Source: Planctomycetota bacterium
GTDB taxonomy: Bacteria > Planctomycetota > UBA1135 > UBA2386
Assembly: GCA_016793305.1 (NCBI GenBank)
Contig: JAEUHU010000507.1
Span: 1 to 7,822 of the forward strand
Length of the DNA: 7,822 nt
Direction of reading: 5' to 3'
Notes under the pieces: model-generated
The model's database searches: none
What the model saw: only the letters and a program-made list of their open reading frames with translations
Told to the model about the DNA's origin: nothing
Shown: one piece after another, positions 508-7,822 of the stretch
How the letters are laid out: each line of letters opens with the position of its first letter
Numbering within the stretch: position 1 is the first letter of the stretch
Position numbers and translations under genes: made by a program

Positions 508-2286
508 TCATGCGGCCAGCAGCTCCCTGGCAACTTCCACCGTGCAGACGTCCCCCACGGCACGCGCAAGCGCCTCGTCGGTGCGGTCCGATCCGACGAG
601 CTCCAACAGCACGGCGCGCGCGGCCACCTTGCGGCCCTCACTGAGGTACTTCCGCAACTCGTGCCGCAGGAACTCGCGGGCCTCGCCCTCTGCTGCGAGC
701 ACTTGGGCAGTGGCGTCCACGATCCGCGCCACGTCGTCGGCACGCTCGCCCTCAAGCTGCCTTTCGGTCTCGGGCGTGAAGTGCTGCCAGGTCTCGGCTG
801 CGCGCCCGACCCGATTCCGCATGTGGCTGCCGAGCAGCGCGCCAGGATCGCCCCCGCTGTCGACGGTCCTGCGCAGGTAGGCGCCCCACTCCGCGACGCC
901 GAACTGCTGCGACGCGCACACCAGCCACTCCCCGAGGCGGGTCGGCGAAGAGCACCAGGCGATCACGCGCACGGCGAATCGGAGGCGCTCGACAGCAACG
1001 GCTCGGCGGTCGCGAATGCCGTCAGGCGAGCCCAGCTGGTCGAGCAAGCCGGCGACGTCGGCGGCGTGCTGCGGCTGCATCTGCTCGATGCCCCTGAGAG
1101 CGAAGGCGGTCACCCACTGTTCCACGATCGCCCGAGGGTCGGCGTTGGGGTGCGGCGCCGTTGCCGACGTCGCGGTGGCGCCAACCTGGACCTCTCCCAG
1201 AACGGCCGGCGCAGCCGGCGCCTCTGCTGCTGGTCGCAGCCGCTTGGTTTCACCGTCTGGAACAACGCGCAGCCGCGCGTCCGTAGGTGAATCCGGTTGT
1301 GACTCCGAAGGGCAATCCGGATGGCGTGCGCCGCTTTGCGAGGGGGGTGGCGCCGCTTCGCGATGGGTAGGCACGCCAGTTCGCGACGGGGGGTGCGCCA
1401 GTTCGCGATGCTCGACCGACTCAAGGCGCGGCACGGCAGCCGTCCCTTTGCCCTTCGCCTTCACTCGTGCGCCACTTTGCGACCCCACTCGTGCGCCGCT
1501 TTGCGACGGTCCCGGTGCAAGGCACAGCTGGCCACCGCCGACTGGCGCCGTCCACTTGTGCAAGGCACCGACCTTCTGTGCGGCAGCCAATGCCGACTGC
1601 AACGTGCGTCGAGGAAGCCCGGTCCGCTCGCACAAGTAGTCGAGGCCGAGCGCCACCTTGCCGGACGAGGGCACTACTTGGCCGAGCACAAGGCCGGCCA
1701 GCAACATCGGCCTCGCCCGCATGCCGAGCGAGCGCACGCGCTGGTCGAACCGTAGACGGCGGCGAGGCTCCGCCCACCGGGCAGCCAACGCAGCGGGCAC
1801 CGCGAAGAGGCCCGCGTTGCTCCCACCAGCCGTATCGGGGTCGCGGTAGGCATGGCCAGCCTCGACCAGGTCCAGCGCGCCACGGCGAACAGCGTCGATG
1901 CACAGTCCGGTCTCGCGCGCAACCCAGGCGAGCGACGCAGCGCGGCCGGCATCGTGCGTCACGCTGTCACCGGTGCGGCCCTCCATGTCGGCCCCTTCGC
2001 ACGTGAGGCCGTTCCGCGCCGCGACAGCAGCCAGGACGATGCTGGCTTCCGGGCTCCACCGAGGATCATGCCCGACGACGAGCGTGCGGAAGGTCGGAGC
2101 GAACCGCGACGCATCCCGCGCCTTTGCCTTGCCCCGAGGCGCCGTGGTATCCTGCGCGTCGTCGAGGTTCCCCACCGCGACACCACGAACCGGGTCGGCC
2201 CCTGCAAGGGTCGGCCCGGTGCCATTTCCGGGCACGGGAAGGAAGCTCAAGAGCACCCCCCGCCCGCTGCCGGAAGAAGTCGCCAC
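508..2286 (-). CDS. Lambda O-like replication initiator, tandem winged helices
   Basis: This is probably the origin-binding initiator of a phage, plasmid or integrated element. Residues about 69-147 form a winged-helix domain: DPRWSPEASIVLAAVAARNG is the usual opening helix of such proteins, and 119-147 give a helix-turn-helix ending in a leucine/valine-rich 'LDLVEAGHAY' wing lead-in. A second one spans about 180-256, with its helix-turn-helix at 215-245 (recognition-helix region GLPRRTLQSAL). Residues 257-385 are a Pro/Ser/Ala-rich linker whose DNA carries six iteron-like repeats. Residues 386-592 are helical and charged, as expected of a region that recruits a helicase or loader. The start is a GTG without a clear Shine-Dalgarno; homology-like sequence begins only near residue 60, so the true start may be further in (for example GTG at codon 38). 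The family assignment is from architecture, not from a search. Confidence 0.7.
   Translation of the reverse strand: MATSSGSGRGVLLSFLPVPGNGTGPTLAGADPVRGVAVGNLDDAQDTTAPRGKAKARDASRFAPTFRTLVVGHDPRWSPEASIVLAAVAARNGLTCEGADMEGRTGDSVTHDAGRAASLAWVARETGLCIDAVRRGALDLVEAGHAYRDPDTAGGSNAGLFAVPAALAARWAEPRRRLRFDQRVRSLGMRARPMLLAGLVLGQVVPSSGKVALGLDYLCERTGLPRRTLQSALAAAQKVGALHKWTAPVGGGQLCLAPGPSQSGARVGSQSGARVKAKGKGTAAVPRLESVEHRELAHPPSRTGVPTHREAAPPPSQSGARHPDCPSESQPDSPTDARLRVVPDGETKRLRPAAEAPAAPAVLGEVQVGATATSATAPHPNADPRAIVEQWVTAFALRGIEQMQPQHAADVAGLLDQLGSPDGIRDRRAVAVERLRFAVRVIAWCSSPTRLGEWLVCASQQFGVAEWGAYLRRTVDSGGDPGALLGSHMRNRVGRAAETWQHFTPETERQLEGERADDVARIVDATAQVLAAEGEAREFLRHELRKYLSEGRKVAARAVLLELVGSDRTDEALARAVGDVCTVEVARELLAA
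1326..1506. repeat. Six iteron-like 16-bp repeats inside the initiator gene
   Basis: The plus strand repeats GTGCGCCGCTTTGCGA at 1326-1341 and identically at 1491-1506. Diverged copies lie at 1348-1363, 1371-1386, 1393-1408 and 1467-1482, with 13, 11, 13 and 15 of 16 bases matching by my count. Start-to-start spacings are 22, 23, 22, 74 and 24 bases, so most are about two helical turns apart. Four copies are read by the overlapping gene in one frame (as SQSGAR or SRTGV) and two in another (HREAA, HRELA). DNA conserved across reading frames points to a binding site rather than a protein repeat. The position, in the linker-coding part of an O-like initiator, matches the known arrangement of the lambda origin in the O gene. 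No obvious AT-rich unwinding element is seen. Confidence 0.65.
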
Positions 2287-2405: not shown

Positions 2406-2482
<77 letters not shown>

Positions 2483-4762: not shown

Positions 4763-6021
4763 ACACCGGCGGCATCGCCCGGCCGACCGGCTCGAAGCCG
4801 AGCAGGCTCGCGGCCGGCTTGCTGCTGCTGGCATCGGCCGCGTCGGCGCAGGAGCCGCTGCTGCGCGCGTCGGCCAAGGCCCCGCAGTGGATCGCCGGTC
4901 TCGCCGAAGCGCTCGCGGTGCAGCTGCCGCCGCTCGCCGAAGGCCAACGGCTCGAACTGCTGGTCGACGCCGAGGGCGTCGCCAGCGCACGAGCCGTTCC
5001 GATCCCGGACGGAGCCGACGACGAACGGCTGCTCCAGCTCGAACTGCGGCCCGCCGCGTGGCTGGCACACGCGGACCTGCCGGCCGACCCAGCCCCACGT
5101 TCGGCGCGCAACCGCGCGGTCGCGATCGGCCAGCCGTTCGGCCTCACGCCGCGCCAGTGCGGCACGCTCGCCGACGCGCTGTGGGCGCGCCTGCACGAAC
5201 TCGATCGCTGTGCGCTCGGCGTCACGCCCGGCGACGGCGAACGTCCGGCACGCCTCGAGCTGTTCGCCACGCCGCGGCCCGGCACGGAACTCGCCGCCTG
5301 GCTGCGGCGGCTGTCTCCGGCCGAGCAGCCGGCACCGACCTGGTCGTGGCCGCGCGCACTGCTGCAGGTGCGCCTGCAGCTCGATCCCACCGAGCTGACG
5401 GCTGCGGCGGCACCGTTCCTGCCCTGGTGGGCCGCGATCGGCGGCGAGCCGATCGAGACGCTGCACGAACGGCTGGCGAGCCACGACGGTCGCCTCGCGT
5501 TCGTGATCGGCGAGGCGCAGTGGGGCCTGGCGCTCGGTCTGCGCGACCCAGCAGCCTTCGCCGCGCGCTGGCGCGCGGACGTGGATGCGACGGGCGATCC
5601 CGACGACAACACGCCGACGACCCGCCACACCGCGGCGCCGTACCGCGACATCGCCCTGCTGCGCACGCGGCACCACGGCCGACGACCGCTCGCGCGCTAC
5701 GGCGACACCGACGGGGCCGTCGAAGCGTTCGGCGGCATCGTCGGCAGGCACTGGTTGCAGGTCGCCGGCCAGGACGCACGGCCCGGCGCAGAACGCGCGA
5801 TCGACGACGCACTCGCCGGCCGCTTGTTCGGTGCGACCACGAGCACGGCACCCGAGCCGGCTCCCACGAGCTGGCTTCAGCTCGATCTCGACGTGCGAGC
5901 GATCGCGACGCAGTGGGGTGGCGAAGCCGGCGATCCGCCGATCCGGCACGTGCATCTCGAAGTCTCGACCGACCGGGCGAACGACACGCCGCGGCTGCAG
6001 CTCACCGCCGCGTGGCGCTGA
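4759..6021 (+). CDS. Exported protein of unknown function
   Basis: I do not recognise this 420-residue product. It opens with a Sec signal peptide: basic residues to Arg16, a hydrophobic core AAGLLLLASAA, and a likely cleavage after ASA at residue 30, before Gln31. The mature part is soluble, rich in Ala, Arg and Leu, with no transmembrane segment, no Cys pairs or repeats that I can assign, and several Trp residues (PFLPWWAAIGG). Its ATG overlaps the lipoprotein stop in an ATGA junction, so the two are almost certainly translated from one message and may work together in the periplasm, for example as a binding protein and an associated exported factor. That partnership is inferred from coupling only. 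Confidence 0.7.
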   Translation: MNTGGIARPTGSKPSRLAAGLLLLASAASAQEPLLRASAKAPQWIAGLAEALAVQLPPLAEGQRLELLVDAEGVASARAVPIPDGADDERLLQLELRPAAWLAHADLPADPAPRSARNRAVAIGQPFGLTPRQCGTLADALWARLHELDRCALGVTPGDGERPARLELFATPRPGTELAAWLRRLSPAEQPAPTWSWPRALLQVRLQLDPTELTAAAAPFLPWWAAIGGEPIETLHERLASHDGRLAFVIGEAQWGLALGLRDPAAFAARWRADVDATGDPDDNTPTTRHTAAPYRDIALLRTRHHGRRPLARYGDTDGAVEAFGGIVGRHWLQVAGQDARPGAERAIDDALAGRLFGATTSTAPEPAPTSWLQLDLDVRAIATQWGGEAGDPPIRHVHLEVSTDRANDTPRLQLTAAWR

Positions 6022-6069: not shown

Positions 6070-7822
6070 TCACCAGGACAAGCCGATGTTGAGCCGGTTC
6101 GTGGTGCGCGCGACGCCGGTCGCCGGGTCGTAGTTGACGCCCTGCACATGGAGCGTGATCGGCGACAGACCCTCGGGGATCGGCAGGCTCCACGACCCGC
6201 TCGTGCCGAACTGCCAGGGCAGCTCGCCGAGGTAGTCCGGACCGGCGATCGGCACGTACTGCCAGCAACCGTCGACGACCGGCACCATGCCGAACAGCTG
6301 CAGCGAGGCAGGTGCAGTCGCCAGCACCGCGAACGAGATCGTGCCGGCAGGCGAGCCGGTGAACGAGATCGAGCCGAACTCCCCGCCGATCCACTGGCTG
6401 CCGTTCCACGCGATCTGCATCGGCGTGCAGCTCGCACCCGAGAGATAGGCCGGGAACACGGCGGTGTACTGACGACGACGGAGCTTGCTCGGCGAGTTCT
6501 GCCCCGGATCGACGATGCCGTAGCCGACGTGGAACTCCGAGCCGCTGCTGCGGAAGCACACGCTGCCACCGTGGATCGTGCCGAGTGCGGTCGCCGGACT
6601 GTCGATCGTGTGGTCGAGCACTTCCTCCCCGCGGTAGCCGTAGAGGCGCAGGTAGAGGTTCTGCGTCACGTTGCTGCGGAAGGCCAGCGCCCAGTGGCTC
6701 AGCGAGTTGCGGTCGAAGTCGACTCCGGCGAGCTCGAGGCGCGCGTCCGCGTTGGCCTGCAGGGTCTTGCTGCCGTGCGGCGTCGTGAACGCTCCGTTCC
6801 AACCGAGGCGCGTGCCGCGGATGCGGTGGCCGTTCGCACCAGCCGGCTTGCCCGACGACTCGGCGACCGTCGACGCGGTCGTGAACAACATCAGGCGGTC
6901 GTCGGAGCCACCGAGCCGCGGCGCCATCTCGTGGCTGCCCGGCGTGGCGCCGTCGATCACGACCTCGGGTCCGACGACGTTGGCCGCGTCGATCCGGCGC
7001 ACGCCGACGTCCCAGTCGTCTCCAGCGACGCCGGCGTAGCGCTGGTAGGCGACGGTCCACTGCCGCGTCGGCCCGACCGCCACCTTGGCGAGCGTCGGGC
7101 GTTCGTGGTCGACGAACGGCGCATCGGCGATCGGGAAGTTCGCGACGATGCTGCCGGCACCGGCGAGGGTGACGAGCTGGCCGTGGATCTCGCTGAACGG
7201 CAGGTTCGCGAACGCGTTCTCGCCTTCGACCTGCATCGCCACCAGCACGGACGTGAACGAGACCGGCGACAGCTCGTCGCCGACCACCGGTCGCCACTGG
7301 TTGCGGTTGCCGATGCTGGCCGCGTTGAGCACGCCCCCCGCGAGGCCTAGATCGGCCCGCTCGTGCACGTGCATGCGCACCCGCGACGTGTCGTTGGCGG
7401 TGAAGTAGCGGGTCCACGCCAGCAGCATGCGTCCGGCCGGCACGTCGAGGCCGAGGCTCGGCTCGCGCGACGACCACAGGTTCGAGAGGTCGGCGAACAC
7501 GAGCACGGGGTTGGCGCCGTCGGGATCGGTCCGGAACAGCCGCAGGTCGGCGTCGCCGGCGGTCTCCCGGACTTCGGCGAGCCACAGGTTCTTGCTGCCC
7601 TGCTGGTCGTAGGCGACCGCGACGTCGACGCAAGGGGCACCGACGGCGACCACGACCGGCGCCACCAGCGGATCGACCACAAGCGGGAACGCCGCCTCGG
7701 CCAGGGCCGAGCCCGCAAGCCGGAGCTCGATGCCACCCGGCACGACGCACGTCTGCATCGGCAGGCGGCGCCCGTTCGCGTCGATGGCGAGCGCGTCGCC
7801 GTAGTGCACGCGGGCGACCCCG
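6070..7822 (-). CDS. Large exported beta-propeller-like protein, 5' end missing
   Basis: The last 583 residues are visible; the frame is open to the right edge, so the gene starts outside. The first visible part, HYGDALAIDANGRRLP followed by FPLVVDPLV (about fragment residues 45-53), matches a linker common in large exported planctomycete proteins after an N-terminal domain. The next 400 or so residues form recurring units with a Trp- or Leu-rich 'WTVAYQRY' / 'WALAFRSN' strand and a following 'V-x-V-x-R' strand, suggesting a sialidase-like beta-propeller. The C-terminal 120 residues (LQLFGMVPVVDGC to a terminal TTNRLNIGLSW) resemble the beta-rich C-terminal module of the same protein group, possibly for secretion or attachment. 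The GTG at 7807-7809 is not taken as the start, because the linker continues upstream. Ligand and role are unknown. Confidence 0.75.
   Translation of the reverse strand, partial: GVARVHYGDALAIDANGRRLPMQTCVVPGGIELRLAGSALAEAAFPLVVDPLVAPVVVAVGAPCVDVAVAYDQQGSKNLWLAEVRETAGDADLRLFRTDPDGANPVLVFADLSNLWSSREPSLGLDVPAGRMLLAWTRYFTANDTSRVRMHVHERADLGLAGGVLNAASIGNRNQWRPVVGDELSPVSFTSVLVAMQVEGENAFANLPFSEIHGQLVTLAGAGSIVANFPIADAPFVDHERPTLAKVAVGPTRQWTVAYQRYAGVAGDDWDVGVRRIDAANVVGPEVVIDGATPGSHEMAPRLGGSDDRLMLFTTASTVAESSGKPAGANGHRIRGTRLGWNGAFTTPHGSKTLQANADARLELAGVDFDRNSLSHWALAFRSNVTQNLYLRLYGYRGEEVLDHTIDSPATALGTIHGGSVCFRSSGSEFHVGYGIVDPGQNSPSKLRRRQYTAVFPAYLSGASCTPMQIAWNGSQWIGGEFGSISFTGSPAGTISFAVLATAPASLQLFGMVPVVDGCWQYVPIAGPDYLGELPWQFGTSGSWSLPIPEGLSPITLHVQGVNYDPATGVARTTNRLNIGLSW

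Follow-up and report, generated by a model that had tools for sequence, protein, structure and literature searches.

Probable iterons of a lambda-like replication origin inside the initiator gene of a planctomycete phage or satellite family

Introduction

The origin of phage lambda lies within gene O and has four iterons, which are bound by the O protein, with an AT-rich region adjoining them. Sections of one source locate both the iterons and the AT-rich tract centrally in O (PMC7466680). According to sections of another, plasmid pSK41, of the RepA_N type, carries its Rep boxes centrally within rep, where the protein sequence is dispensable, and in pPR9 the N-terminal domain has been exchanged together with the origin (PMC5703833). 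According to excerpts of a third, R6K and pPS10 have iterons that measure about 22 bp, and the RK2 iterons adjoin four 13-mers (PMC4980987). Here we describe an analysis of a 7,822-nucleotide stretch of contig JAEUHU010000507.1 from a Planctomycetota bacterium (hereafter the window) and of a gene within it that plausibly encodes a replication initiator. We consider it highly likely that 16-bp repeats in the middle of this gene are the iterons of a lambda-like origin located inside the initiator's own gene, in a family belonging to planctomycete phages or satellites. The computed results behind this reading are the repeats themselves, the constraint at the DNA level, the kept spacing, the covariation of the repeats with the second winged helix of the protein, and the phage or integrase context of the relatives. 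The family is labeled planctomycete because two relatives (P0002 and P0010) were named as such by their source.

The parallel with lambda had been drawn in a preliminary description of this DNA, and it could be both supported and extended. In the lambda record the iterons are at 39034, 39054, 39078 and 39101 (spacings of 20, 24 and 23) and their phases in O are 0, 2, 2 and 1, that is, three frames; the reading of iterons in more than one frame is therefore not new. Lambda and the window family share iterons that are inside the initiator gene, read in several frames and similarly spaced, whereas the repeat and the host phylum differ, and the window family has a GC-rich box array where lambda has a strong AT-rich tract. 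The comparison with O was made by sequence profiles and repeats and gave no Pfam and weak PHROGs matches. RepA_N initiators, as far as the sections of the source describe them, resemble the window family in having an N-terminal binding domain, an origin in the linker-coding part and a separate C-terminal domain; the window family differs from them in having no RepA_N match, a tandem winged-helix model and a phage or satellite context. With RepE of F, pi of R6K and TrfA of RK2 the family shares the tandem winged-helix model, which is RepE54-like, but it gave no sequence match to them, and it is further distinguished by iterons inside the gene and a large extra C-terminal domain. No title or abstract among the matches listed for in-gene iterons, planctomycete phage origins or satellites described the window's initiator family. 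In-gene origins are already known from lambda and RepA_N plasmids; what is new here is the initiator family, with its RepE-like model, its boxes and its exchangeable block.

Results

Repeat Arrays in the Window and in Homologous Genes

Six copies of a 16-bp repeat, TCGCRAANNGGCGCAC, are present on the minus strand at 1326-1506 (Table 1). The preliminary description had reported that these copies lie in the linker-coding part of the gene, mostly 22-24 bases apart, with four of them read in one frame (SQSGAR type) and two in another (HRELA type), and each of these statements held. Followed along the gene, the copies start 24, 74, 22, 23 and 22 bases apart, four of these five spacings being in the range 22-24, and reading each copy placed copies 1, 2, 4 and 6 in one frame and copies 3 and 5 in another. 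At up to two mismatches, TCGCRAANNGGCGCAC had six matches in the window, all of them the iterons, against a mean of 0.65 and a maximum of 3 in 200 dinucleotide-preserving shuffles. In addition, the iteron region had the highest number of 15-mer repeat pairs (44) of all 210-bp stretches across the window.

Protein searches identified 12 relatives and then 18 more, and DNA was available for five further genes (L001, L004, L005, L006 and L007). Their arrays consist of CCGCAAANNGGCGCACG in L001 (8 copies), CGNNCCCCCACCGGTGC in L004 (8 copies), CNGTCGCGAAGCGGCAC in L005 (9 copies), ACCGGTGCAGATCTGCN in L006 (8 copies) and CCTGCTCGANNNCGCAC in L007 (4 copies). All five are mostly at 22-23 bp and have a repeat sequence that differs from that of the window. 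The last spacings were 23, 22 and 22 in L001 and 23, 23, 23 and 22 in L005; the spacings of L004 and L006 were 23, 22, 16 and then 22 four times, and those of L007 were 23, 22 and 23. Three frames are used in L001, L004, L005 and L006, and two in L007. Spacings estimated from peptides alone were 24, 74, 23, 22 and 22 for P0008, P0009 and P0019, and 24, 73, 23, 23 and 22 for P0007, near those of the window. P0015 is approximately the same gene as L005, and as close copies the two are not independent.

Four short boxes are present within 60 bp past the last iteron in all six genes. The spacings of the CGGA boxes were 12, 12 and 12 in the window, 12, 11 and 12 in L001, 11, 11 and 11 in L005, and 10, 7 and 11 in L007, and those of the CCCCGT boxes were 9, 9 and 9 in L004 and 8, 9 and 9 in L006. 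The boxes are read in three frames in L005 and L007 and in one in the window. In each gene the 60-bp intervals with equally many boxes form a single run, at the post-iteron site. Both motifs were picked post hoc from these very sequences, and the counts obtained for them on synonymous recoding (CGGA, of 5000: window 79, L001 3, L005 16, L007 140; CCCCGT: 0/5000 in both L004 and L006) are therefore not independent tests. In RK2, too, four 13-mers adjoin the iterons, and by this analogy the four-box stretch may serve for melting or as a second site of binding. The most AT-rich 60 bp of the window gene begins 23 bp beyond the last iteron. The fraction of a gene's 60-bp intervals that were as AT-rich or more was 0.05-0.08 in the window, L004 and L007, 0.20 in L005, 0.34 in L001 and 0.80 in L006, the box stretch being mildly AT-rich in some genes but not in L006.

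Arrays of this kind might instead be sites for self-control or copy number (an operator, handcuffing or incompatibility), with the true origin elsewhere in the element. Plasmid iteron arrays serve copy control too, and the window contains only part of the element. However, the scans gave no true-score copy upstream of the initiator genes or anywhere else outside them in the window, L001 (21 kb), L015 and L016 (20 kb each) and contigs L017 and L018; two extra true-score matches, in L016 and L017, were on the opposite strand and both inside these genes. At a looser score (at least 12) there were six outside matches in the window and eight in L001, and all had lower scores than the true copies (16.6 or less versus 23.4 or more in the window, and 14.8 or less versus 18.7 or more in L001). 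Moreover, an array divided into two repeats and four, with boxes adjoining it, resembles the anatomy of an origin. We consider such a control role, with the origin elsewhere, unlikely, and favor an origin at the repeats.

The five DNA-level homologues come from three of 154 genomes of one class. A sample of the phylum, in which only a few candidates were scored for each genome, gave a relative in one of 392 genomes, itself among these three. Single-protein scans of genome contigs and viral contigs gave no relative, an alignment scan of genome contigs gave one locus, and two alignment scans of viral contigs gave none; likewise, phage and plasmid records yielded none with P0009, and phage records none with P0022. 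A single exact motif match in genome G153, lying under a 1006-residue open frame, was treated as chance. The homologue in L001 (9953-11492) was observed to be split over two frames soon after the repeats and boxes, which may reflect decay, an assembly error or frameshifting.

Table 1. Coordinates of features in the window.
Feature	Position	Strand	Remarks
Initiator gene	508..2286	-	592 aa from GTG; open reading frame and homologues
N-terminal tandem winged-helix domain	1513..2154	-	modelled fragment, 214 aa
C-terminal helical domain	511..1137	-	alignments and model
Iteron 1	1491..1506	-	read as SQSGA
Iteron 2	1467..1482	-	read as SQSGA
Iteron 3	1393..1408	-	other frame, HRELA
Iteron 4	1371..1386	-	2 mismatches to TCGCRAANNGGCGCAC, read as SRTGV
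Iteron 5	1348..1363	-	2 mismatches to TCGCRAANNGGCGCAC, other frame, HREAA
Iteron 6	1326..1341	-	read as SQSGA
Four CGGA boxes, 12 bp apart	1280..1319	-	1316-1319, 1304-1307, 1292-1295, 1280-1283
tRNA-Asp	2406..2482	-	about 120 bp from the start of the initiator gene

The Predicted Initiator Protein and the Context of Its Relatives

The database copy of the window's protein (P0001) has 580 residues, and its contig is listed there with a length of 7822, so that the window is probably an entire contig. The N-terminal domain was modelled with a predicted local distance difference test score (pLDDT) of 89 and a predicted template modelling score (pTM) of 0.86. Foldseek with this model gave a Rep-DNA complex as the best match (E 1.7e-4) and 1rep, RepE54, at rank 19 (E 3.2e-3), and the top 37 matches of the fold search against the PDB were all co-crystals of the RepE54 series. 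The linker was modelled with a confidence below 50, and the C-terminal helical domain may act in the recruitment of a helicase or primase.

Weak matches to the PHROGs family phrog_391, annotated as replication initiation O-like, were obtained for seven of 21 relatives at E up to 0.1 (the best being 2.9e-5), and the window protein itself had no PHROGs match up to E 1. No Pfam O family was matched by the 21 relatives at E up to 0.01, and neither Pfam Rep_3 nor the RepA_N domain was matched by five initiators at E up to 1 or by the 21 relatives at E up to 0.01. A profile of the family searched against PDB sequences matched no solved Rep protein at E up to 10.

Phage or integrase genes are present near four of the five relatives with DNA, L005 (contig of 4370 bases) having been left out of the annotation. 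The L001 gene has near it a head-tail connector (PF12236, 2.4e-94) and a small terminase, the L004 gene an ERF annealing protein, and the L006 gene a Sak4-like protein. Near the L007 gene, in L016, there are an integrase, an excisionase and a small terminase; here the initiator is held in a 7.7-kb element (5921-13642) flanked by 52-bp copies of the end of a tRNA-Leu, and the element is satellite-like. Based on the RepE-like model, the weak phage-initiator profile matches and these phage and integrase genes, it is plausible that the window gene encodes an initiator.

Covariation of Protein and Repeats

Repeat estimates were available for 24 proteins (P0013 was without one), of which 17 were kept for the covariation analysis, seven having been dropped beforehand: P0018, P0020, P0024, P0026 and P0031 as poor fits, and P0005 and P0011 with their register unclear. 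These estimates are derived from peptides and may err at single bases; that for the window had its last base off relative to the DNA. Among the 17, iteron distance was correlated with N-terminal distance when the C-terminal distance was controlled for (r 0.37; P 0.0014 by permutation). The correlation with C-terminal distance was r 0.17 (P 0.087) alone and r -0.01 (P 0.54) given the N-terminal distance. The strongest correlate was the second winged helix (r 0.44, and 0.36 given the first), and it was more closely related to the right half of the repeat (r 0.47) than to the left (r 0.08). By eye, a helix RRCLFRHL was seen in four proteins, all with GGCAC repeats, and P0021-P0023, whose second winged helix carries an insertion, have repeats containing CCGC.

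The binding domain and the repeats together may also have moved between proteins. The C-terminal pieces of P0006 and P0011 are 97% identical and the N-terminal pieces 43%. In their alignment, 16 of the first 20 columns agree, followed by 4-9 per 20 across the binding domain and repeats; downstream there is one block of 12/20, eleven blocks of 18-20/20 and an end of 12/12. This pattern looks like an exchange of the binding domain plus repeats, for which the pPR9 exchange, as given in the sections of the source, is the closest precedent. The two proteins come from contigs of 9486 bases (P0006) and 1612 bases (P0011), so that an assembly error is possible, though two junctions would be needed.

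Such an exchange at the linker, along with the small terminase genes near the L001 and L016 initiators, would suit repeats that serve in packaging, as a pac site of that terminase, or in recombination, promoting the exchange of modules. We judge this very improbable, as the repeat sequence tracks the second winged helix of the initiator itself and a phasing of 22-23 bp has no obvious reason under recombination.

The C-terminus of P0012 is 90% like that of P0010, and its N-terminus is different. P0012, P0025 and P0027-P0030 have a related C-terminus and a different N-terminus with a CxxC...CxxC ribbon, and recurring AQT or PQT peptides were seen in them by eye; this N-terminus may represent another binding module that has repeats of its own.

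Constraint on DNA Versus Peptide

In the recoding test, the linker of each gene was recoded synonymously in 2000 trials, following the codon usage of that gene, and out-of-phase 15-mer pairs with up to two mismatches were counted. The window linker had 17 such pairs against a null maximum of 5, L001 41 against 15, L005 154 against 18, L004 104 against 11, and L006 76 against 11, and none of the 2000 trials reached the observed value in any of these five genes. The exception was L007, which had no out-of-phase pairs; there a weak excess was found at three and four mismatches (reached by 7 and 8 of 500 trials) and none at five (43/500). The 39 other stretches of equal length in the window gene had no out-of-phase pairs, nor had other stretches of the six genes except for at most one in L005. 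As a positive control, the lambda O linker, which contains a proven origin, had nine, reached by 0/2000 recodings.

A second test, on the peptides of proteins most of which had no DNA available, asked whether a single exact 13-mer could encode the linker peptide in each of the three frames and at no fewer than three positions; it was used in place of a pairwise two-frame compatibility test, which was too permissive. Of the 25 proteins that have the winged-helix N-terminus 12 passed, and of the six with another N-terminus none did. For 11 of the 12, the count was reached by none of 40 residue shuffles, and for P0019 by four of 40. P0024 and P0026 were among those that passed, with doubtful 13-mers, and the window's own protein, which uses two frames, failed.

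Together, these data support the view, put forward in the preliminary description, that selection acts on the DNA rather than the peptide at the repeats: the recoding null was exceeded in five of the six genes, and on comparison of nucleotide with amino-acid sequence the homologues keep the spacing while both the repeat sequence and the peptides change. That the repeats are peptide repeats of a disordered linker, made by in-frame duplication and with no function as DNA, would suit the four of six copies that share a frame, the low confidence of the linker model and L007, but it is scarcely credible and was rejected on the recoding test, in which the out-of-phase copies of five of the six genes were never reached; in addition, a single 13-mer matches the P0021 linker peptide at six positions covering three frames.

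Discussion

Binding, melting, helicase recruitment and the activity of the window's copy are steps that we infer for an origin of this kind. The tandem winged helices of the N-terminal domain (residues 45-258, approximately) would bind the repeats, so that protein is arrayed about every two helical turns on one set of two repeats and another of four. This array would bend or strain the DNA until the adjoining four-box stretch opens, and the C-terminal helical domain would then help recruit the host helicase or primase. The spacing of 22 bp is not a multiple of three, and the repeat DNA would therefore be read in rotating frames, with the linker peptide largely a by-product.

Whether these proteins constitute a new class of initiator, belonging to phages and satellites of planctomycetes, is, in our estimation, evenly balanced. 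Such a class would have a RepE-like tandem winged-helix protein, the whole origin within the gene, and a binding domain and origin that are exchanged as a block, the in-gene origin consisting of iterons spaced by two helical turns and four boxes spaced by roughly one. If this is correct, nature has provided a series in which protein and DNA are matched, such as RRCLFRHL with GGCAC versus RRTxQ with GGCGC, and these initiator-iteron pairs could show how a winged helix selects DNA. The locus also adds a separate initiator family in a phylum for which the literature matches listed describe no phage origin, offers a clear case of a DNA function overriding protein sequence, and is a candidate replicon for planctomycetes.

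Other Features of the Window

The context of the window's own element consists of the neighboring tRNA-Asp; no integrase, attachment repeat or phage gene was seen in the window. The tRNA-Asp is a possible attachment site of the element, and a DUF6687 gene lies beyond it. No second copy of the tRNA-Asp end was found in the window, except for a 14-bp inverted match at 6594-6607. A tRNA-Trp called by ARAGORN at 5005-5099, inside a long open frame, is probably false because Rfam did not give it.

At the start of the initiator gene, 2281-2305 holds a 13-bp tandem repeat, CGCCACCAGTTTC, which is continuous with an inverted repeat with 7-bp arms found by eye at 2294-2312; these start-site repeats (2281-2312) could be an operator. 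Downstream of the gene, 1-360 contains CG-rich near-repeats, and a tandem array of a 38-bp unit (2.2 copies, score 99) is present at 66-147.
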